DNA of 64,000 bases from Rhodococcus erythropolis NBRC 15567 (lineage in GTDB: Bacteria; Actinomycetota; Actinomycetes; Mycobacteriales; Mycobacteriaceae). The DNA lies in assembly GCF_001552595.1 (NCBI RefSeq), contig NZ_BCRM01000001.1, positions 620,001 through 684,000 on the forward strand, read 5' to 3'. The notes beneath the pieces are model-generated. The model saw only the letters and a program-made list of their open reading frames with translations. It was not told where the DNA came from and ran no database searches. The translations under genes were made by a program, and so were the position numbers. Positions 1 to 21,026 of this stretch are shown piece after piece; position 1 is the stretch's first letter; each line of letters opens with the position of its first letter.

Positions 1-20
1 ATGAGGAAGGTGCTGTAGTC

Positions 21-785
21 GTGAGTAGGAAGGTAGCGATCGTCACTGGTGGCGCATCGGGGATCGGCCTGGCAACGTGCAAACGATTCGCCGACTTGGG
101 TTGGAATGTCATCTCTGCCGACCTGTCGCATACATCCGGAGACACTGCGCCAGAACCAGATACACGGACAGTCGGCGTTCGAGTGGATGTCACCGATGAG
201 GGGGATATCCGACGGCTTCGCGACGTCGCCGAAAAGCTGTTCGGTCGTGTCGACACGGTTGTGACCTCGGCGGGAACCGCGGACAACGCGCCGATCCGGC
301 ACACCACACCCGATCGATTCAGGCGAACCCTCGAGCTGAACCTCGTTTCCACGTTTGCGGTGGTCAGGGAGTTCGTGGATCTGCTCGCCGGAGATGGCGG
401 CGGATCGGTGGTGACAATTGCCTCGGTTTCCGGCCTACGCGGCAGCGTAGACCGTGCCGCGTATTCCGCCTCGAAAGGTGGCGTGGTCGCGTTGACCACA
501 CAACTCGCGATCGAGCTCGCCGGCGAGGGGATCCGAGTCAATTGTGTTGCACCGGGTTCGACGCGGACACCGCTTGCAAGTCGGGCCCAGAGCCCTGAAA
601 TGCAGAGCGCCATCTTGCAGTCGATCCCGTTGAGCCGTTACGCGGAGCCGGCTGAGATTGCCGAAGTCGTGACCTTTGTCGCTGGTCCCGGCGCCGGTTT
701 CGTGACGGGTCAGACGTGGACGGTCGACGGAGGTCAGTCGATGACAGCCGGTTGGAATCTTGCGAAGGAGCGACATGACTCTTGA
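21..785 (+). CDS. SDR-family oxidoreductase, first gene of BKACE/DhaKL operon
   Basis: NAD(P)-dependent short-chain dehydrogenase of classical length (254 aa). The cofactor motif TGGASGIG lies at about residues 9-16 and the catalytic YSASK at about 151-155, followed by the usual VAPGSTRTP loop and a C-terminal VTGQTWTVDGG. It starts with GTG at 21, preceded by AGGAAGG at 4-10; an upstream gene may end just before it (stop codons at 2-4 or 16-18), so the operon probably begins outside the window. Its end overlaps the next gene by 11 bp. In this context it probably oxidises a hydroxyl of a polyhydroxy acid to give the keto acid used by the BKACE enzymes; the substrate cannot be read from sequence. 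Confidence 0.9.
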   Translation: MSRKVAIVTGGASGIGLATCKRFADLGWNVISADLSHTSGDTAPEPDTRTVGVRVDVTDEGDIRRLRDVAEKLFGRVDTVVTSAGTADNAPIRHTTPDRFRRTLELNLVSTFAVVREFVDLLAGDGGGSVVTIASVSGLRGSVDRAAYSASKGGVVALTTQLAIELAGEGIRVNCVAPGSTRTPLASRAQSPEMQSAILQSIPLSRYAEPAEIAEVVTFVAGPGAGFVTGQTWTVDGGQSMTAGWNLAKERHDS

Positions 786-1695
786 CGCAACGTCCAATAC
801 AACGGAGAAACCGGTAATCATCGGAGTGCACGTCAACGAGAACACCATGCGCGCACCCAATCCCCACATTCCGTGGACGCCCAGCGAAATAGCCGACACT
901 GCTCGCGCTTGTGAGGATGCGGGGGCGTCGTTGATGCATTTTCACGGTCGAGCCGTGGACGGCGGCGTGGATCACTCGGCGGCGACCTACGGAGAGATCG
1001 TCGAGCGGGTTCGGGCGGTATCGAATCTGCTGCTTGCGCCGTCGATGGCCAATGTTCCCGGCTACACGATAGATGAGCGGCTGTCGAATCTTGCCCCGAA
1101 CCAAAGTGATCCGAAACGACGTTCCGACTTCTTGGTCGTCGATATGGGCTGTGCGGCGATGGACTTGATCGATGCGACGACAGGCTTGTTCGCAACCGAT
1201 TCCAGGGTCTTCGTCAACGACACTCGAACACAGATCGAGTTACTTTCGCGCGCTGGTGAATTGGGTCTGGTGCCGTATCAGACGTCATTCAACGTGAGTT
1301 GGACGCGCGCGATCTTCGCCCACGCAAGGGTGCGGAATCCGTCGTCACCATTGGTGATCGCTTTCATTCTCGGTGGTGACGAGTTTCCGGCTGCACATCC
1401 GGCGACAGCAGCAGGGCTACGTGCGCAACTGGACCTCCTGCCGACTGATCTTCCAGTGGAGTGGATCGTCTCGGCCTACCGAGGCAATGTTCTTGCAGCA
1501 GCGGAGGAGTCGATCAAGCGCGGGGGCCATGTAGCAATCGGTGCCGGTGACTACCACTACGAAGAACTGGGATACCCCTCCACACCTGATCTGGTCGCCG
1601 AAGTTGTTTCGATCGCTCGGCGGTACGGGCGTGAACCCGCAAGTCCTGATCAGGCACGTCGAATTCTAGGGGTGGATGTCCATGCGAGTAGTTGA
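775..1695 (+). CDS. Divergent beta-keto acid cleavage enzyme (BKACE/DUF849) paralog 1
   Basis: A 306-aa member of the BKACE family, which condenses a beta-keto acid with acetyl-CoA to give acetoacetate and a new CoA ester, or acts in reverse. ATG at 775 overlaps the SDR end. The zinc-binding HxH is present as HFH (residues 55-57, in GASLMHFHGR). The conserved C-terminal VRVGxED segment reads VAIGAGD here, so the Arg and the zinc-ligand Glu of the family (Arg226 and Glu230 in Kce) are replaced by Ala and Gly at about 254 and 258; Glu263/Glu264 follow shortly after. Together with BKACE-2 (4195-5088), which has the opposite loss, this suggests altered chemistry or a hetero-oligomer. Family call is firm; activity is open. 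Confidence 0.8.
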   Translation: MTLDATSNTTEKPVIIGVHVNENTMRAPNPHIPWTPSEIADTARACEDAGASLMHFHGRAVDGGVDHSAATYGEIVERVRAVSNLLLAPSMANVPGYTIDERLSNLAPNQSDPKRRSDFLVVDMGCAAMDLIDATTGLFATDSRVFVNDTRTQIELLSRAGELGLVPYQTSFNVSWTRAIFAHARVRNPSSPLVIAFILGGDEFPAAHPATAAGLRAQLDLLPTDLPVEWIVSAYRGNVLAAAEESIKRGGHVAIGAGDYHYEELGYPSTPDLVAEVVSIARRYGREPASPDQARRILGVDVHASS

Positions 1696-2110
1696 AACCG
1701 AAGGTGCCGAACCTACTTTGGTTCATTCCTCTAACGGAAAGAGAGTGTGGATCATGGATTCGATTGCGTTTGCTTCCTCGGCTCAGGCCGGTGATGTGAT
1801 CGTGACCGGATCACACGGAGGGACGAGTGCTGGAGAGTACGCCGTCGGGTTCGGGGTTCGTGTTGTGGTGTGCAATGACGCCGGCATAGGGAAGAACAAG
1901 GCAGGAATCGCAGGTTTGGCTGCGATCGACGCCCAGAAGATCGTCGGCATTGCAGTCGGACACGAGAGTTCGCGTATCGGAGATGGCAAGGACGTGTGGG
2001 AGTGCGGCATCGTGACGTATGCCAATCCGACTGCAGTCGCAGCGGGTGTGCGTGTGGGCAGCCGCGTTTCCGAAGAAGTGCTGGCACTGATAGAGAGGAG
2101 CGTCGACTGA
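1682..2110 (+). CDS. Uncharacterised small protein, NDAGIGK pair member A
   Basis: A 142-aa protein I do not recognise. ATG 1682 is favoured because AGGGGTGG ends 6 bp before it; ATG 1676 is in frame but too close to that site. It is clearly homologous over its length to the next gene: shared IMDS/VMDS, IVxxSxGGxxSG, NDAGIGK at about residues 60-66, AGIxG, GxAVxHxSxxI, GxDxW and a C-terminal AAGxRVGxxV. No signal peptide or membrane segment is seen, so it is probably cytosolic. The glycine-rich NDAGIGK block and the conserved His/Asp look like an active or ligand site. Tight coupling (overlaps the BKACE end, and shares one base with gene B) points to a heteromeric complex acting in the same pathway. 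Confidence 0.75.
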   Translation: MRVVETEGAEPTLVHSSNGKRVWIMDSIAFASSAQAGDVIVTGSHGGTSAGEYAVGFGVRVVVCNDAGIGKNKAGIAGLAAIDAQKIVGIAVGHESSRIGDGKDVWECGIVTYANPTAVAAGVRVGSRVSEEVLALIERSVD

Positions 2111-2544
2111 TGTTTCGGAACATTGTCGGTGTGGAGAACGGTAGACAGATTGTCGTCATGGACAGTATGTCGCAGATCGAACGGTCGGACCGCGACCGCA
2201 TCGTCGTTGCGGCATCCAACGGAGGTCAAGAGTCAGGGCGGATGGCGATTGCGACGGGCTGTGCGTTGGCTGTGCTGAACGATGCCGGAATCGGCAAGGA
2301 CAACGCGGGGATCATCGGAATCGTCCGCATGGGAGATTCGGGACTTGCCGGCGTAGCGGTCAGTCACGACTCTGCCGAGATCAGCAATGGAATGGATATG
2401 TGGCACAACGGAACTGTTTCGTATGTCAACGAGCCCGCAGCGGCGGCTGGGATACGGGTCGGTGACAACGTTCGCACGTGTGTGAGTGCGTTTGCGGTTC
2501 GCTTCCCTGTCGGCCCAATGTCGGCGTCCGAGAGTTCGTCATGA
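2110..2544 (+). CDS. Uncharacterised small protein, NDAGIGK pair member B
   Basis: A 144-aa paralog of the preceding gene, coupled to it by TGATG at 2108-2112. It carries the same core NDAGIGKDNAGIIG, then VAVSHDS, NGMDMW and AAAAGIRVGDNV. It differs from A in a longer C-terminus rich in Ser and Pro. The end overlaps dhaK by ATGA. Two adjacent, diverged copies kept in one operon usually mean two subunits of one enzyme. I cannot assign a fold or reaction; an isomerase, epimerase or hydrolase step in the pathway would be possible. Confidence is for it being a real gene, not for function. Confidence 0.75.
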   Translation: MFRNIVGVENGRQIVVMDSMSQIERSDRDRIVVAASNGGQESGRMAIATGCALAVLNDAGIGKDNAGIIGIVRMGDSGLAGVAVSHDSAEISNGMDMWHNGTVSYVNEPAAAAGIRVGDNVRTCVSAFAVRFPVGPMSASESSS

Positions 2545-3536
2545 TCGGCCATGTGGTCAACCGGCCCGAGGATGTAGTCCGCGAAGCGCTCGAAGGACTT
2601 CAGATCCTGCACCCGGAAATGCTCTCCTACCACCGAGATCCGTTGTTTGTGACTCGCGCGGTTGTCGCCCGAGACAAAGTTGTGTTGGTCTCAGGTGGCG
2701 GGGCCGGGCATGAGCCGTTACACGCGGAGTTCGTCGGATCCGGCATGTTGGACGCCGCAGTTCCTGGGTCGGTCTTCGCCAGTCCCACAGCCTTTCAGAT
2801 CCGTGCTGCGGTCAATGCTGTCGAGACCGGACGGGGTGCACTTCTCATCGTGAAGAACTACACCGGAGACAAACTGAATTTCTCGATCGCGGCCGAGTTA
2901 CTCGGAACTGAGCGGCAAGTGGAGATCGTGATGGTCGACGACGACCTCGCGACGACGACTGCAGACGAGGGTGGACCTGGACGTCGTGGTACCGCTGCGG
3001 TAATCGCCGTGGAGAAGATTTGTGGGGCGGCCGCGGAACGGCACTGGGCGCTTTCCGAGATCGCTGACCTGGGGCGCCGGGTGGTGGCGGCGTCGGCGAC
3101 GTTGGGTGCAGCTTTCCGCTCGTGCACGGCTCCCGGACAGGATCGTCCGTCCTTCGAACTGGCGCCGGGGGAGATGGAGTTCGGCATCGGAATCCATGGC
3201 GAGCGTGGACGTGAGACGCGTCCGACGGTTCCTGCCGCCGAACTCGTGGCGCAGTTGTCGGAGCCGATCCTCGATGCTGTCGGGGTGGAGCGCGGGGATG
3301 GTGTGATAGCGATAGTGAATGGGCTAGGGGCAACACATGGACTCGAATTATCGATTGCCACTGCAGAATTGAAGTCTTTCCTCGGGGATGCCGGTATCGG
3401 TTTGGATCGGGTGATTGCAGGTTCTTTCGTCACTGCATTGGATATGCACGGGCTCTCTATCACCCTTCTCCGTTCGACCGAGGAGTTTGTGGATCTCTGG
3501 GATGCAACGGTACGCACTCCCGCTCTCGCTTGGTAA
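2541..3536 (+). CDS. dhaK: Dihydroxyacetone/ketose kinase subunit DhaK
   Basis: DhaK binds the ketose covalently through a histidine while DhaL supplies the phosphoryl group. ATG 2541 overlaps the previous stop (ATGA). Visible family marks: SGGGAGHEP near residues 50-58 (SGHEP more usual), NYTGDKLNF with the conserved Asp, VVDDD-like MVDDD, and GIGIHGE carrying the substrate-binding His. Length is 331 aa, normal for DhaK. The loop that is often TAGRRG reads GGPGRRG. No DhaM/PTS component is nearby, so the pair is probably ATP-dependent, as in known erythrulose or dihydroxyacetone kinases of actinobacteria. The natural ketose here is unknown. Confidence 0.9.
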   Translation: MIGHVVNRPEDVVREALEGLQILHPEMLSYHRDPLFVTRAVVARDKVVLVSGGGAGHEPLHAEFVGSGMLDAAVPGSVFASPTAFQIRAAVNAVETGRGALLIVKNYTGDKLNFSIAAELLGTERQVEIVMVDDDLATTTADEGGPGRRGTAAVIAVEKICGAAAERHWALSEIADLGRRVVAASATLGAAFRSCTAPGQDRPSFELAPGEMEFGIGIHGERGRETRPTVPAAELVAQLSEPILDAVGVERGDGVIAIVNGLGATHGLELSIATAELKSFLGDAGIGLDRVIAGSFVTALDMHGLSITLLRSTEEFVDLWDATVRTPALAW

Positions 3537-3565
3537 CTCGAATATGCACTACTGAAAAGAGTTTC

Positions 3566-4198
3566 ATGATGACAACGTTGAGCGTTGGGGACACTCGGGC
3601 GTGGATCGATCGATTTGCCGACGCCGCCGAAGATCAATTCGATTCCCTCACAGATTTGGACCGGCTTGTCGGAGACGGCGATTTCGGAATGAATCTGCGG
3701 ACGGGCCTGCGAAGTGCGGTGCAACGACTTCGTTCCGACCCGCCGACCAGTCCTGGTGAAGTGTTCGCCCGTACGTCGGATGCGTTTCTCGGCATCGGTG
3801 GGACAAGCGGACCACTTCTCGGTCTGTGGTTCGGCCGGATCGGAGCAGTCTCTGGAGTTGAAGTGACCGCAACAGACTTGGCTTCTGCCCTAGGTACGGC
3901 GACAGCTGCGGTGCAGCGTCTCGGCAATGCCCAGGTGGGTCACAAGACCATGGTCGACGCCATGGTCCCCGCAACCAGCGCATTGACCGAGGCGGCAGTC
4001 AGCGGGGCAACCTTGTCTGCTGCCTTGAGCTCTGCGGCCACGGCTGCGAGGCTCGGCGCCGAATCGACTCGCGCGATGCTCGCCCGCCGCGGACGCGCGA
4101 CCTACGTGGGAGAACACGCCAGGGGCGTCGAGGACCCTGGGGCATCGGCGATTGCCATGTTCTTCGCCGCATCCAGCTACAAGAGCGTTCCGGCATGA
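3566..4198 (+). CDS. dhaL: Dihydroxyacetone/ketose kinase subunit DhaL
   Basis: Nucleotide-binding partner of DhaK, 210 aa. Start at ATG 3566 (ATG 3569 is equally possible) with GAAAAGAG just upstream; the in-frame TTG at 3530 lies inside dhaK and has no ribosome site. The magnesium/ADP motif is LDRLVGDGDFGMN (about residues 31-43): all three Asp are kept, but the histidine that normally follows the last Asp (GDGDHG) is Phe here. The rest is typical: GGTSGPLLG and a helical GNAQVGHKTMVDAMVP. Its stop overlaps BKACE-2 by 4 bp. The His to Phe change may reflect a different substrate or slower turnover. Confidence 0.88.
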   Translation: MMTTLSVGDTRAWIDRFADAAEDQFDSLTDLDRLVGDGDFGMNLRTGLRSAVQRLRSDPPTSPGEVFARTSDAFLGIGGTSGPLLGLWFGRIGAVSGVEVTATDLASALGTATAAVQRLGNAQVGHKTMVDAMVPATSALTEAAVSGATLSAALSSAATAARLGAESTRAMLARRGRATYVGEHARGVEDPGASAIAMFFAASSYKSVPA

Positions 4199-5088
4199 GC
4201 GATCTGCGAGACAAGGTCATCGTCACAGTTGCCCCGACGGGTGGCTTCCTCACTGTTGCCGACAATCCGTTCATTCCGACTCAGCCTGAGCAGATTGCGG
4301 CGGATGTGGCACGCTGCCACAGCGCTGGAGCCAGCGTGGCAGCACTTCATGCTCGACGACCGGACGATCAAGCGACCTGTGATGCCGCAATCTATCGGCG
4401 GATGAATACGCTTGTCCGCCAAAGCTGCGACATCGTGATCAACAACTCGACCGGCGGCGGAGTCAACGGTGACATGGTGAGTGTTCGCAGTGACGGAACG
4501 CGCGTCGTGGACTGGGACGCGAGGCTGCAGGGCCTGCATGGCGGAGCAGACACATGCACGCTCGATGCCATCACGGCCTATGTGACATCACCGGTCGGTG
4601 AGGTACTGATGGACACGCCGCCCAGTCGTGCCGCCGAACTGGCAGCGTCAATGCGCGAACTAGGAATCAAACCTGAATGGGAGGCCTTCAGCCCGTCACA
4701 TCTGCTCCAGGAGATACGTACGTTGACCGAAGAGCAGCCTGGCCCGCACCTCGTCAATCTTGTACTGGGACTTGATCGAACTTTTCAGAATGCGATGCCG
4801 TACTCCCCGCAGATCTTGCAGCAGATGGTGGAACACCTACCGGAGAAATCGGTCTTCTCCGTGAGCATCAGCGGGCCAGATCAACTGCGTGGTCTGACTC
4901 ATGCACTCGTGCTCGGTGGGCACGTGCGTGTGGGAATCGAAGACTATCCGTTTCTCGCGAATGGGGAGCCGGCCGAGAACGTTCGTTTGGTGGAGAACAT
5001 CGTCGACATCGTCCAGCGACTCGGAATGCAGCCTGCAACACCTGGGGAGGCAAGGGCAATCCTTGGTTTGGAGGGTTCGGATGAGTAG
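4195..5088 (+). CDS. Beta-keto acid cleavage enzyme (BKACE/DUF849) paralog 2
   Basis: A 297-aa BKACE-family protein with the family's start (VIVTVAPTGG, then NPFIPTQPEQIA), STGGG near residue 83, and the C-terminal GGHVRVGIEDYPF in which Arg245 and Glu249 match the catalytic Arg and zinc-ligand Glu. Where the family has HxH, this protein has AALHAR: Ala50 replaces the first His, His52 remains. It overlaps dhaL by 4 bp and the dehydratase by 8 bp. Expected reaction is retro-Claisen transfer of a beta-keto acid onto acetyl-CoA, but with one zinc ligand missing it may need the paralog at 775-1695, which keeps HxH and lacks the Glu. Confidence 0.85.
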   Translation: MSDLRDKVIVTVAPTGGFLTVADNPFIPTQPEQIAADVARCHSAGASVAALHARRPDDQATCDAAIYRRMNTLVRQSCDIVINNSTGGGVNGDMVSVRSDGTRVVDWDARLQGLHGGADTCTLDAITAYVTSPVGEVLMDTPPSRAAELAASMRELGIKPEWEAFSPSHLLQEIRTLTEEQPGPHLVNLVLGLDRTFQNAMPYSPQILQQMVEHLPEKSVFSVSISGPDQLRGLTHALVLGGHVRVGIEDYPFLANGEPAENVRLVENIVDIVQRLGMQPATPGEARAILGLEGSDE

Positions 5089-6811
5089 AACACCGACGAG
5101 TAGAACACTTCGCTCGCAGGATTGGTTCGGAGGCAATGATCTCAATGCATTCATCCACCGCTCGTGGATGAAGAACCAGGGTATCCCTGATCGGATGTTC
5201 GACGGCCGACCGGTTATCGGTATCTGCAACACGTATTCCGAGCTCACGCCGTGCAACGCTCACTTCAGAGATCTGGCCGAGCAGGTGCGACTGGGTGTCA
5301 TCGAAGCGGGCGGATTTCCAGTTGAGTTTCCGGTGATGTCATTGGGTGAGACGATCATCCGCCCCACCACGATGCTCTATCGGAACCTCGTCAGCATGGA
5401 CGTGGAGGAGTCGATTCGAGCCAATCCGATCGACGGCGTCGTACTGCTCTGCGGCTGCGACAAAACCACCCCGGCGCTGGTAATGGGCGCAGCCAGTTGT
5501 GACCTTCCCACCATTGTCGTATCCGGTGGGCCCATGTTGAACGGCCGCCATCAAGGTAAAACTGTCGGATCTGGAACCTCGGTGTTCGAGATGAGTGAAG
5601 CAGTGCGAGCGGGGTGCATGAGCGAATGTGAGTTCAGAGCAGCGGAATCGGCGATGTCTCGATCGCCTGGTCACTGCAACACTATGGGCACCGCGTCGAC
5701 GATGGCTTCGATTGTCGAGACTTTGGGCCTCACGCTGCCCGGTAATGCTGCGATCCCGGCAGTGGATTCACGGCGACGTGTACTTGCACGCGACAGCGGC
5801 GTGAGAATCGTGGAGATGGTCGTCGAGAACCTGACGATGTCTTCGGTCGTCGACCGAAATTCATTCGAGAATGCGATCAAGGTGAACACGGCTATCGGTG
5901 GGTCCACCAACGCTGTGGTGCACTTGCTTGCCATCGCCGGGAGGCTGGAAATTCCCCTCGAACTCAGCGATTTCGGGGAGCAGAGTCGTGACGTTCCCCT
6001 GCTGGTCAACCTCATGCCTTCGGGTACCTATTTGATGGAAGATTTCTTCTACGCAGGCGGACTGCCCGCGGTGATCGCCGAGCTCGGAGACATCCTCCAT
6101 CTGGATGCCGCCACGGTTACCGGAATGACTCTCGGTGAGAACAACTCCGGCGAAACGATTTGGGATGACGACGTAATTCGTAGCACGGCGGCACCGTTGC
6201 TGGAGCAAGCCGGCATAGCGGTATTGACCGGCAATCTCGCGCCGAACGGTGCAGTGATCAAGCCGTCTGCGGCGTCGCCCGAGTTGCTCAGCCACGTGGG
6301 TCGTGCGGTCGTGTTTCACGGAATGGACGACTTCTCGGCGCGCGTCGACTCGCCGGATCTCGACATCGAAGCCGACGACGTCATCGTCCTCACCGGTGCT
6401 GGACCGAAGGGGTTTCCGGGTATGCCAGAGGTAGGTAATCTGCCACTCCCTCGAAGGCTGCTCGAGCAGGGTGTGCGAGACATGGTCAGGATCTCGGATG
6501 CGCGAATGAGCGGAACAGCCTTCGGCACAGTCGTTTTGCACGTTGCGCCTGAAGCGGGAGCCGGTGGGCCTCTCGGCGCGGTCAGGGATGGTGATTTGAT
6601 CGAGTTGGATGTTGCTCGTGGAGTCTTGCGTGTACTCGTCGACGACGACGAGCTGGCCAGGCGTCTCGAGGCGTTGCCGCCACGCGTACAAAAGAGTACG
6701 AGTGGGTATCAACGACTGTTCGTGGATCATGTGATGCAGGCCGACCGCGGAGTCGATTTCGATTTCCTGGTGGGCAGGCGTGGAACGGAGGTACACGGTG
6801 ACAATCACTGA
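5081..6811 (+). CDS. IlvD/Edd-family sugar-acid dehydratase
   Basis: Iron-sulfur dehydratase, 576 aa. ATG 5081 sits inside the end of BKACE-2. Cluster cysteines are visible as TPCN (Cys58), CGCDKTTPA (Cys126) and GHCNTMGT (Cys199), almost the same spacing as in the structurally known L-arabinonate dehydratase (59/127/200); the catalytic Ser lies in RMSGTAFGT near the C-terminus, followed by APEAGAGGPL. These features point to the [2Fe-2S] sugar-acid branch rather than branched-chain amino acid IlvD, and the catabolic operon agrees. It should convert an aldonate-like acid to its 2-keto-3-deoxy product. Exact sugar acid unknown. Confidence 0.87.
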   Translation: MSRTPTSRTLRSQDWFGGNDLNAFIHRSWMKNQGIPDRMFDGRPVIGICNTYSELTPCNAHFRDLAEQVRLGVIEAGGFPVEFPVMSLGETIIRPTTMLYRNLVSMDVEESIRANPIDGVVLLCGCDKTTPALVMGAASCDLPTIVVSGGPMLNGRHQGKTVGSGTSVFEMSEAVRAGCMSECEFRAAESAMSRSPGHCNTMGTASTMASIVETLGLTLPGNAAIPAVDSRRRVLARDSGVRIVEMVVENLTMSSVVDRNSFENAIKVNTAIGGSTNAVVHLLAIAGRLEIPLELSDFGEQSRDVPLLVNLMPSGTYLMEDFFYAGGLPAVIAELGDILHLDAATVTGMTLGENNSGETIWDDDVIRSTAAPLLEQAGIAVLTGNLAPNGAVIKPSAASPELLSHVGRAVVFHGMDDFSARVDSPDLDIEADDVIVLTGAGPKGFPGMPEVGNLPLPRRLLEQGVRDMVRISDARMSGTAFGTVVLHVAPEAGAGGPLGAVRDGDLIELDVARGVLRVLVDDDELARRLEALPPRVQKSTSGYQRLFVDHVMQADRGVDFDFLVGRRGTEVHGDNH

Positions 6812-7553
6812 GCGTGTCGGCCGAGTCGTGGTCGTGACCGGTGCAGGGTCGGGACTCGGCCGCGCAATGGCCAGAGGTCTACTCGATGCAGGACACCACG
6901 TTGTATTGGCTGGTCGAAACAGCGTGAGCTTGGAAGCGACAGGTGGGGGTCACGAGCGTGCAGTGGTAATTCCCGCTGATGTGTCCTCGCCCGAATCGGT
7001 TCACCGGTTGTTCACATCCGTGACTGAGCGTGTCGGCAGACTCGATGTGCTTGTCAACAACGCAGGGACATTCGGTCCGTCGGGGAGTGTGGACGAGATC
7101 GATCCTGAAGCGTGGAACGCGACAGTCGCAGCCAATCTCACCGGCGTATTCCTTTGTGCGCGTGAAGCGATTCGTATCATGAAAACACAGGATCCGAGAG
7201 GAGGCCGGATCATCAACAACGGGTCGCTCTCCGCTCACACGCCCCGGCCTGACAGTGCCGCCTACACCGCGACCAAACACGGTGTGTCAGGTTTGACGAA
7301 GTCGATCTCTCTCGACGGCCGAGAATTCGACATCTGTTGCAGTCAAATCGACATCGGCAATGCGGCAACTGACATGACAGCCGGAATCGGCCACTCGGCA
7401 CGACAAGCTGACGGCACCACCAGGCCCGAGCCGACATTCGATCCTCGTCATGTCGCGAACACCGTTGTGCAACTGATAGATCTACCACTCGACGTGAATG
7501 TCCCGACTCTGACGATCATGGCAAACCGGATGCCGTACGTCGGGCGCGGTTGA
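6798..7553 (+). CDS. SDR-family oxidoreductase, last gene of the operon
   Basis: Short-chain dehydrogenase, 251 aa, starting with GTG 6798 placed 6 bp after GGAGG (6787-6791); it overlaps the dehydratase end by 14 bp. TGAGSGLG at about 13-20, NNAG at about 88-91 and YTATK near 155-159 are the SDR cofactor and catalytic motifs. The usual P-G segment after the active site is replaced by SQIDIGNAATDM, and the end MANRMPYVGRG is unlike the common VDGG tail, so it belongs to a different SDR subgroup from the first gene. It probably handles a second oxidation in the pathway. It ends 5 bp from the convergent IclR gene. Confidence 0.88.
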   Translation: MTITERVGRVVVVTGAGSGLGRAMARGLLDAGHHVVLAGRNSVSLEATGGGHERAVVIPADVSSPESVHRLFTSVTERVGRLDVLVNNAGTFGPSGSVDEIDPEAWNATVAANLTGVFLCAREAIRIMKTQDPRGGRIINNGSLSAHTPRPDSAAYTATKHGVSGLTKSISLDGREFDICCSQIDIGNAATDMTAGIGHSARQADGTTRPEPTFDPRHVANTVVQLIDLPLDVNVPTLTIMANRMPYVGRG

Positions 7554-7558
7554 CGGCG

Positions 7559-8344
7559 TCAGCGTCGTTGTAGGACAGGGCGGACGACGGACTGGGCACT
7601 CGAGAGATCACGTGAGATGGCGATTGCCGTCGTCCGCACCGCCGCGTCGATACGGGTCAGATTTATTCGGCCTGCCATACCGGAAATGGAGATGGCGCCG
7701 AGGACGTCTTCGTCCGGGCCGAATATTGGTGCTGCGGCGCCGACGATCCGGGGAAATGCTTCCTGGCGGTCGAAGGCGACACCACGCTTGCGAACACGAT
7801 CCAGTTCTCGGTGGAAGAGTTCGGGGTCGGTGATGGTGTTCTCGGTGTGTGCTTCGAGGACAGTGGGCATCGTGAAATCCCGAGAGTTGGTGAACGCCAA
7901 TACTGCTTTGCCGGAACAACTTGCGTGTGCAGGCCACCGACCACCGATTTGCTGCGGAAGGCGTGGTCCGTCGTCGCCACGGAAGACATCAAGGTAAACC
8001 ACGTCGAAACCGTCCAATACAGCGAGTCCCACGTTGTGCCCCGTTGCTTCACGCAAGGCCGAAAGGTGGCGCCGCGCTGCTTCGCGGAGGTTTCGCTGCC
8101 GTGGAACAGATTCGCCGATCTCGAACAGGAGGAGACCCAAGCGGTAGTTGGTTCCTTGCCGTTCGAGCAACCCGACTCGGACGAGATCGTCGACCATTCG
8201 ATACACCGTTGTTTTGGCCATGCCTGTCCGTCGAACAAGCGCTGCTGCGCTGAGAACGCCTGAGCTGTCACGAAAAGTCTTCAGGATCTCGGTGGAACGA
8301 CCAATTGCGGAAACCTCGCCATCGGCCCGATGAATGGGACTCAC
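7559..8344 (-). CDS. IclR-family regulator of the BKACE/DhaKL operon
   Basis: N-terminal winged helix (about residues 15-75, with AALVRRTGMAKTTVYRMVDDL) and C-terminal IclR effector domain (GHNVGLAVLDG, SCSGKAVLAF, GVAFDRQEAFPRIVGAAAPIF). I prefer GTG 8344: the frame stays open to TTG 8386, but that start would lie inside a perfect inverted repeat. No good ribosome site precedes 8344, and a promoter-like pair ends 6 bp before it, so the transcript may be leaderless. It faces the catabolic operon and is its likely regulator, sensing a pathway acid. Whether it activates or represses is not visible. Confidence 0.85.
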   Translation of the reverse strand: MSPIHRADGEVSAIGRSTEILKTFRDSSGVLSAAALVRRTGMAKTTVYRMVDDLVRVGLLERQGTNYRLGLLLFEIGESVPRQRNLREAARRHLSALREATGHNVGLAVLDGFDVVYLDVFRGDDGPRLPQQIGGRWPAHASCSGKAVLAFTNSRDFTMPTVLEAHTENTITDPELFHRELDRVRKRGVAFDRQEAFPRIVGAAAPIFGPDEDVLGAISISGMAGRINLTRIDAAVRTTAIAISRDLSSAQSVVRPVLQRR

Positions 8345-8350
8345 CGAACT

Positions 8351-8397
8351 ATTCTGTCTGCCTGATGCGCGATTGTCGAGGGGCAATCGCGCATCAG
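8351..8397 (-). promoter_or_regulatory. Promoter and 14-bp dyad in front of IclR gene
   Basis: CTGATGCGCGATTG (8362-8375) and its exact reverse complement (8384-8397) are separated by 8 bp. On the minus strand TCGACA (8374-8379) and CAGAAT (8351-8356) are 17 bp apart, reading into GTG 8344. The dyad covers the -35 region, as expected for an autoregulated IclR gene. It also lies 40 bp past the end of the lipoprotein gene and could serve as its terminator, but no T-run follows. Confidence 0.5.
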
Positions 8398-19546: not shown

Positions 19547-19589
19547 GGTGTTCTCCTTGCTTAACTGAAGTTCGAAAGATGTTGGGGGA

Positions 19590-21026
19590 TCAGACGCGAG
19601 AGTCGGTCATCGCGGTGTGATCGGGGTAGATCATCGATGTAGGCGGATTGCTGGTGCGCTTGGCGAGCGGGTAGTAGATCAGGCCGGTGAACACGATGCC
19701 GACGATCCAGGAGATGTCGGCGCCGCCGAGCATGTCCGTGACGGGGCCGGTGTACATCTTCTGGGCGAGGAACGGGATCTGGGCGAGAACGCCGGCGGCG
19801 TAGCAAGCCAATGCGGTGAAGTTCCATGCTCCGTATCGACCGTTGACGTCGTAGAGCGCCGGAATGTCGATGCGCTCCTTGGAGATCAGGTAGTAGTCGA
19901 TCAGATTGATCGCACTCCACGGCGTGAACACCATCAGCAACACCAGGACGAAGTTCTTGAAGTTGTCCAGGAAGTCGGCGCTGGCGGCGATCGCGATCAA
20001 CACCGAGACAGCGGTGAAACCGAGAATGTAGAGGGTACGGGCGGTGCTCGAGATTCGTGACTGGCCGTTGAAGGCTGTGACGGTGGTCAGGATCGACATG
20101 AATCCGCCGTACGCGTTGAGCACGTTCACCGTCAGCTTGCCGACCAGGATGACGAAGTAGATCAGGAAGGCGATGGCAGCGGGTCCGGCCAGATCTCCCA
20201 TGAAGCCGACCTGGTTACCCAGGAAGGCGTCGCCGGCGCAGGCCGCGACGAGGGCGCCGAAGGTCATGGACCACTGTGATCCGATGACGCTACCGAGGAA
20301 CGTCGACCAGAAAGTGGTGCTCTCGGAGGTGCTGCGCGGCAGGTAACGCGAGTAGTCGGCGACGTACGGGCCGAACGTGAGCTGCCAGCCGGCACCCAGC
20401 GAGATCGCGAGCAGGAAGGTGACGATGTCGAAGCCCTTGATGCCGACGTACGAGGCGACGTCGTACTCGAGGAACAGTCGAACGGCCAGGTAGGAGAATC
20501 CGACGATGCCCACGACGGTGGCGATCCTGCCGACGATGTGGATCAGCTTGTAGCCGGTGACCGCGACGAATGCGGTGAGGAGACCGAAGACGACGATGCC
20601 GACGGTGGGGCTGTCGATGTGCAGGATCTTGTTGACGGCTTGGCCGGCCAACACGGTGCCGGTGGCAGCGAAGCCGAGGTACATCAGGATGACGAGAACT
20701 AGCGGTACGACGGCTCCCTTGACGCCGAACTGGGCGCGACTCGAGATCATCTGGGGGAGGCCCATGCGCGGGCCCTGTGCGGAGTGAAGCGCCATGACAG
20801 CGCCACCGAAGATGTTGCCGATCAGAAGTCCGACGATTGCCCAGATGGCGTCCGCGCCGAATACGACGGCGAGAGCACCGTCGACGATTGCCGTGATCTG
20901 CATGTTGGCGCCGAACCAGAGAGTGAACTGGCTGCGCGGGGTGCCGTGTCGTTCTGCATCCGGGACGACGTCGATAGTGCGTCGTTCCGGAGTGAGGATG
21001 ACCTCGGCCGGTCCATCGTGAGTCAT
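19590..21026 (-). CDS. NCS1-type cytosine/purine-like permease, probable histidine or urocanate uptake
   Basis: A nucleobase:cation symporter-1 family protein of 478 aa with about 12 membrane helices. ATG 21026 ([22 protein letters not shown]) is chosen because family members start shortly before ERRTIDxVP; the frame stays open to 21143 through the promoter. Motifs typical of the family are [25 protein letters not shown] and [10 protein letters not shown]. It leads the hutU-hutI-hutG operon with a HutC-type operator in its promoter, so histidine, urocanate or a related imidazole is a better guess for the substrate than cytosine. Confidence 0.85.

Follow-up and report, generated by a model that had tools for sequence, protein, structure and literature searches.

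The 64,000-nucleotide stretch of Rhodococcus erythropolis NBRC 15567 analyzed here (the window; G000:C1:620001-684000 of a 6.59 Mb genome) opens within an operon that combines two proteins of the PF05853 fold, a dehydratase of the IlvD/Edd type, a two-subunit DhaKL-like kinase and two small paralogous proteins, here called A and B. Nine closely spaced genes lie on the forward strand between positions 21 and 7553, and both these coordinates and the gene classes named in an earlier note, made from the sequence alone, agree with our own gene calls and Pfam assignments. That note described an operon of nine overlapping genes. The nine are all present, although the complete operon is longer, as the window edge cuts off two further genes, for a major facilitator superfamily (MFS) carrier and a VOC protein (Glyoxalase_4), with which it begins about 2 kb before the window (G000:C1:617960-620018). 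The stop codon of the VOC gene is at window position 18 and the first short-chain dehydrogenase (SDR) gene starts at 21. The genes mostly overlap, as had been said of them, but DhaK and DhaL do not, given the inferred DhaL start. The features of the locus are as follows.

L003:12960-14339, upstream of the window: MFS carrier gene, preceding the VOC gene
about L003:14464-15018, start inferred, last codons at window 1..18, + strand: VOC protein (Glyoxalase_4), assigned by Pfam
21..785, + strand: SDR1, short-chain dehydrogenase (PF13561), with the motif YSASK
775..1695, + strand: BK1, PF05853 fold, closest to cis-epoxysuccinate hydrolase, metal HxH retained
1676..2110, + strand: small protein A, with the motifs GSHGG and NDAGIGK
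2110..2544, + strand: small protein B, a paralogue of A, with the altered motifs ASNGG and SAEISNG
2541..3536, + strand: DhaK-like subunit (Dak1), GIHGE histidine motif retained
about 3566..4198, start inferred, open frame from 3530, + strand: DhaL-like subunit (Dak2), GDGDFG retained
4195..5088, + strand: BK2, similar to beta-keto acid cleavage enzymes (BKACE), with A-x-H replacing H-x-H
about 5081..6811, + strand: IlvD/Edd sugar-acid dehydratase of the PRK06131 subfamily, assigned by NCBIfam, with the motif SDARMSGT
about 6798..7553, + strand: SDR2, second short-chain dehydrogenase, with the motif YTATK
7559..8386, - strand: IclR-family regulator, tail-to-tail with the operon and conserved together with it

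Among named relatives, those closest to the window here are Rhodococcus sp. P-2 and R. qingshengii, whose A proteins are 99% and 96% identical to that of the window. A search of Rfam with L003:11500-17000 gave no match.

Further copies of the block were fetched with small A from a collection of 84,980 species genomes, using a scan of short peptide patterns that is not exhaustive and in which every locus contains A by construction. This yielded eight relatives (three Rhodococcus, four Nocardia and one Prescottella), all eight with the order MFS-VOC-SDR1-BK1-A-B-DhaK-DhaL-BK2-IlvD-SDR2 followed by the tail-to-tail IclR gene, albeit with the MFS gene of one (L016) about 2 kb further off than in the others. 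In the Prescottella defluvii copy (L018, 6313-16716) the MFS, BK1, DhaL, SDR2 and IclR genes are broken across reading frames, reflecting either decay or errors of sequencing or assembly. The block is sporadic, since small A is matched in only three of 298 genomes of the order and the A/B profile in only six of 28 genomes of the genus, the genome under study being counted in both; four of the six, again including our own, contain a pair of hits of which the better exceeds 215 bits. Searched against plasmids by megablast, the operon had a single partial match, of 5%. The proposal that these genes form a coherent catabolic operon is supported. Rhodococcus yunnanensis (L013) also carries an extra copy of SDR2 (19570-20322, 78% identical) about 4 kb past the operon.

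A shorter form of the block is found in genome G138, which belongs to another family of the same order. Its core locus has the genes MFS-VOC-SDR1-BK1-A-B-BK2-SDR2 and IclR, and DhaK, DhaL and IlvD are not present there. Elsewhere in this genome a split DhaK-DhaL pair (64% and 58% identical) adjoins an IclR gene, and a third locus contains an IlvD relative (58% identical) with no DhaKL adjoining it.

The SDR, DhaK, DhaL and IlvD proteins of the operon have intact motifs. The histidine in GIHGE of DhaK and the GDGD motif of DhaL are both present, and we take these, together with YSASK and YTATK in the two dehydrogenases and the full GDGDFG of DhaL, to be functional motifs; the aligned cysteines of IlvD and its SDARMSGT presumably have functional roles too. 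Assignment of the dehydratase to PRK06131 is clear (896.8 bits against an NCBIfam cut-off of 539), and it resembles solved dehydratases of this group (803 bits to 8EJ0, and 740 bits to the L-arabinonate dehydratase 5J83), with the cysteines and SDARMSGT retained. The kinase was correctly described from the sequence as a two-subunit DhaKL without DhaM. No match to EIIA-man (PF03610) was found in the genome at E 0.001, a search that is positive in five of 14 control genomes, and hence no DhaM was seen. It is also distinct from a fused DhaK-DhaL kinase encoded elsewhere (L004:6739-8427, at about 141 kb of contig C1), which is 52% identical to the operon DhaK.

BK1 and BK2 both pass the curated PF05853 cut-off of 24.8 bits, with 152 and 224 bits respectively, and in this sense the earlier designation of two BKACE homologs holds. 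The description as a BKACE pair nevertheless calls for correction: the two proteins belong to different subfamilies, and neither protein has the full residue set of Kce (2Y7D). Nine positions of Kce were checked (E14, H46, H48, S82, T106, E143, R226, E230 and D231), for which we assume the functional labels. The best solved relatives of BK1 are cis-epoxysuccinate hydrolases (197 bits, E 4e-57, nearly full length to CESH[D], 5ZMU/5ZMY), compared with 67 bits for Kce. When aligned with Kce, BK1 retains H46, H48, S82 and D231, four of the nine positions, and fails at E14, T106, E143, R226 and E230, which are N, V, T, A and G. Kce has three metal ligands, of which two are retained in CESH[D], and the review that states this also names the CESH[D] residues D115, E190, R11 and D251 (PMC6429283). 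BK1 shares the metal HxH and the D115 and D251 positions with CESH[D], but has His for R11 and Ile for E190. Both residues are replaced in all eight operon-type BK1 sequences aligned (the window, L012-L017 and L019, with L011 and L018 left out), R11 by His, Gln or Asn and E190 by Ile or Val. Because it lacks five of the nine Kce positions and two of the four in CESH[D], BK1 has the residue pattern of neither enzyme.

BK2 is closer to Kce, retaining seven of the nine positions (H48, S82, T106, E143, R226, E230 and D231), but it fails at the metal site, where H46, H48 and E230 read A, H and E, and it has Phe at E14. The alanine is also present at H46 in all five BK2 relatives aligned with Kce, and in seven of seven BK2 relatives in another alignment. 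We observed the same alanine in place of the first metal histidine in four of four proteobacterial BK2-like proteins (L064, L066, L067 and L069), and in two of these loci (L064 and L066) genes for a 3-hydroxyacyl-CoA dehydrogenase, a fumarylacetoacetate-hydrolase and a crotonase lie close to the BK2-like gene.

Proteins A and B had been singled out as a paralogous pair belonging to no named family, which our searches bear out: they are 39% identical to each other, and neither gave a match in Pfam at E 0.001 or in NCBIfam. Sequence profiles of A plus B and of their two-domain relatives returned no convincing solved relative. Elsewhere the family consists mostly of one two-domain protein, as in 13 of 13 plasmid records, in each of which 80% or more of a two-domain query is covered at a single place; a scan of viral contigs with the two-domain protein gave no match. 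In a domain tree rooted at its midpoint, with moderately supported deeper forks, the A proteins (100/96) and B proteins (99/97) form clades that are mutual sisters (90/92), and the single-domain genes of genomes G527 and G476 are their nearest relatives (80/78). From these clades A and B look like the products of a duplication separate from that of the two-domain proteins.

Kinship of this family with DUF1805 or IMS was considered but not used, as the hits were weak and often covered just a short G..S..N..A..G motif. With E allowed up to 10, DUF1805 (PF08827) does not appear among the matches of A or B from the window, and of the members listed singly only one, the distant relative in L029, passes its cut-off (31.7 against 29.5 bits). 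This two-domain protein of Aminobacter aminovorans plasmid pAA02 (L029, 9785-10738) appears by eye to have an N-terminal export signal, and its gene sits between those for a VOC protein and a dienelactone hydrolase. Genome G1035 (L110; 8907-9299, 14613-14963 and 15300-16337) contains single-domain relatives, one of them shortened, near two SDR genes and what looks by eye like a ketol-acid reductoisomerase-like gene, in a neighbourhood of aromatic appearance.

We also examined the company kept by A/B and BK1 relatives outside the block. Queries for RuBisCO-like protein (RLP), sugar kinase and 6PGDH-C were run with tblastn against 54 inspected sequences, the gene tables of PLSDB being incomplete. 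For A/B we inspected 12 of the 13 plasmid records matched and 11 genome loci from nine other genomes, and an RLP gene accompanies the A/B relative in seven of these 23 outside loci (five plasmid records and two genome loci). The five plasmid records are all haloarchaeal and each combines the RLP with a four-carbon acid sugar kinase, an SDR and a VOC protein; four of them also have a 6PGDH-C protein in the stretch. VOC proteins were compared from two of the A/B plasmid records, and the haloarchaeal one scores above the Glyoxalase_4 cut-off whereas that of Aminobacter falls below it. The two genome loci with RLP are in G527 (L052) and G476 (L053, a 4 kb stretch), the RLP of L053 having come to light with the queries above. 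Clustered around the A-type gene of L052 are a BK1 relative, genes for a four-carbon acid sugar kinase and a 6PGDH-C protein, and an RLP lying in two frames. Three more members of this cluster were named by eye: a GMC oxidoreductase, a zinc alcohol dehydrogenase and an aquaporin-like gene.

BK1 relatives show a similar association. We inspected seven of 20 matched plasmid records, and the BK1 profile (E <= 1e-30) matches seven of 394 genomes of the class, our own included, giving six loci from five of the six other genomes. RLP genes are found in five of these 14 loci: four of the seven plasmid records, none of the six class loci, and L052. The same four plasmid records have a four-carbon acid sugar kinase and an SDR together with OiaX or another RLP, although the OiaX of one (L075) is annotated at the very edge of the stretch. 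The six class loci contain neither an RLP nor a four-carbon acid sugar kinase.

Taken together, these data suggest that the eleven-gene block probably serves the breakdown of a small sugar acid, and we could match its route to none that has been described. We found no description of this gene set in the open-licence literature searched; the earlier note likewise knew of no published pathway with it. The association of A/B and BK1 relatives ties the operon loosely to routes in which 3-oxo sugar acids are phosphorylated and cleaved, and the RLP among their neighbours points to chemistry of the 3-oxo-isoapionate, or apiose, type; the RLP and four-carbon acid sugar kinase genes likewise lend some support to the guess, made from the sequence, of a branched acid as substrate. 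Catabolic pathways for D-apiose and D-apionate that use OiaK and OiaX were reportedly described by Carter et al. in 2018, and one apiose branch includes an erythrulose kinase of the DhaK type. The likeness to these pathways is that in distant clusters A/B or BK1 relatives are found together with a four-carbon acid sugar kinase and either OiaX or another RLP. The differences lie in the genome itself, which has no match to RLP (OiaX/OiaT; PF00016) at E 0.001, where five of 14 control genomes do, and in the operon, which has no four-carbon acid sugar kinase and has DhaKL and BK2 instead. The RLPs of apiose catabolism act on 3-oxo-isoapionate-4-phosphate, according to a review (PMC6302742).

A joint best explanation, which we advance tentatively as one possibility, is that the operon encodes an RLP-free, ATP-driven relative of the apionate-type routes; we infer the substrate, the order of steps and the role of every enzyme. 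As DhaKL and a BKACE variant are here but the RLP and its kinase are not, the simplest way to read these facts together is that DhaKL acts as the kinase and BK2 does the cleavage. The MFS carrier would import a sugar acid that is small and probably branched (C4-C6, of the apionate type), with the operon linked to the IclR regulator. Oxidation by SDR1, SDR2 or both could then give a keto acid similar to 3-oxo-isoapionate, which the VOC protein, the A/B protein and BK1 might between them rearrange, open or isomerize. DhaKL would use ATP to phosphorylate the -CO-CH2OH end of this keto acid, or of a ketose left after loss of CO2, a task that would be that of the four-carbon acid sugar kinase in the related clusters. 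BK2 may perform the carbon-carbon cleavage that is assigned to the RLP in those clusters, and IlvD/Edd may dehydrate the starting aldonate or a side product.

Several observations weigh against an apionate-type route. The operon loci themselves (the window with its upstream region, L011-L018 and L019) contain no relative of RLP, four-carbon acid sugar kinase or 6PGDH-C, and the link to the RLP clusters thus rests on families that are shared with other clusters. No RLP is in the stretch for seven of the 12 A/B plasmid records, several of which have aromatic or CoA-ester gene surroundings, nor for nine of the 11 A/B genome loci, one of which (L051) is just 4.8 kb long; it is similarly missing from three of the seven BK1 plasmid records and all six loci of the class search. 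BK1 is 33-37% identical to its RLP-linked relatives, with no supported grouping with them. The seven records inspected for BK2, out of 195 matched, have no RLP, four-carbon acid sugar kinase or A/B, and several BK2 relatives have aromatic or acyl-CoA genes around them. Outside the operon, no inspected locus has A/B or BK1 together with DhaK, DhaL or IlvD, and consequently there is no example there of DhaKL in the kinase role. Finally, cleavage of a C2-branched keto acid in the manner of a BKACE would be chemically unusual. A related idea concerned ApnO, the 6PGDH-type oxidoisomerase of the 3-oxo-isoapionate pathway. Two 6PGDH-C queries found no match in the operon loci, the rest of the genome not being searched, and a replacement of ApnO by BK1 and an SDR was dropped as a firm claim because in L052 a BK1 relative occurs alongside a 6PGDH-C protein.

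Other readings of the operon account for part of its content. It is possible, if rather doubtful, that two routes share one operon, the core MFS-VOC-SDR1-BK1-A-B-BK2-SDR2 being joined by an aldonate branch in which IlvD and DhaKL feed dihydroxyacetone-type ketoses to glycolysis. G138 has exactly this core, with its DhaK-DhaL pair and IlvD homologue at other loci, and the same lack of outside pairings of A/B or BK1 with DhaK, DhaL or IlvD fits as well; as the G138 core does without DhaKL and IlvD in place, these three may serve a second branch, despite the homologues elsewhere. Their position in all eight fetched loci inside the core, between B and SDR2, nevertheless speaks for one pathway. More doubtful is a route for a linear 2-deoxy or 3-hydroxy sugar acid resembling deoxyribonate, which would be imported by the MFS carrier, oxidized by an SDR to a 3-keto acid and cleaved by BK2 with acetyl-CoA to acetoacetate and a hydroxyacyl-CoA. 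Among documented routes with MFS, SDR and PF05853 proteins, oxidation of deoxyribonate comes nearest, all three being encoded in one operon as here, and its gene cluster is supported by mutant-fitness evidence in three bacteria (PMC6365646). The seven Kce positions kept by BK2 are consistent with such a cleavage, and the MFS carrier, both SDRs and BK2 all fall within the short G138 core. However, BK2 is one metal histidine short, there is no lactonase or glycerate kinase among the operon proteins (the genome was not searched for glycerate kinase), and although BK2 is explained, A, B, BK1, the VOC protein, DhaKL and IlvD are not.

We regard as unlikely a C4 dicarboxylate route resembling that for tartrate, in which hydration of an epoxide or similar compound by BK1 would give a dihydroxy diacid that IlvD dehydrates to a keto acid. 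IlvD requires a 2,3-dihydroxy acid, tartrate carriers are known among the MFS anion symporters, and the closest solved relative of BK1 is indeed a cis-epoxysuccinate hydrolase; however, the replacement of R11 and E190 throughout the operon-type BK1 proteins weakens the case for epoxide hydrolysis, and DhaKL and BK2 are left without a role. The route offered in the earlier note is very unlikely. There an acid is dehydrated and oxidized, both BKACEs cleave the product with acetyl-CoA, and DhaKL phosphorylates the ketose that remains. The gene classes behind it are correct, but the dehydratase yields a 2-keto-3-deoxy acid rather than a beta-keto acid, and the lack of five Kce residues in BK1 and the alanine at H46 in BK2 speak against cleavage by two BKACEs. 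That interpretation survives in part, as the catabolic operon and the DhaKL without DhaM are supported and the double cleavage is not.

The apionate-type reading can be extended to the A/B family at large, albeit as a doubtful proposal. A and B could represent a new enzyme family that partners an SDR in acting on keto acids, among them sugar acids of the RLP pathways; in Nocardiaceae a single-domain ancestor may have duplicated to give a heteromer that was recruited to an RLP-free route for branched sugar acids, where an ATP-driven DhaKL would phosphorylate the keto acid, and chemistry new to the PF05853 fold would be carried out by a BKACE variant with one histidine and a CESH-like metal enzyme. 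If so, an uncharacterized protein family spanning haloarchaea to rhizobia would gain a testable function, the BKACE fold would gain two more branches with altered metal sites, and there would be a RuBisCO-free way of dismantling plant sugars with a branched chain, or a related acid. The compact size of the operon would allow tests by transfer or deletion.

For the four-carbon acid sugar kinase family (PF07005) the genome has a single match, at a distance from the operon on contig C50 (L088, 9262-11553), within an open frame of 763 residues. Its neighbours, identified by eye, are a dipeptide-type ABC transporter, an aldo/keto reductase and an aldehyde dehydrogenase.

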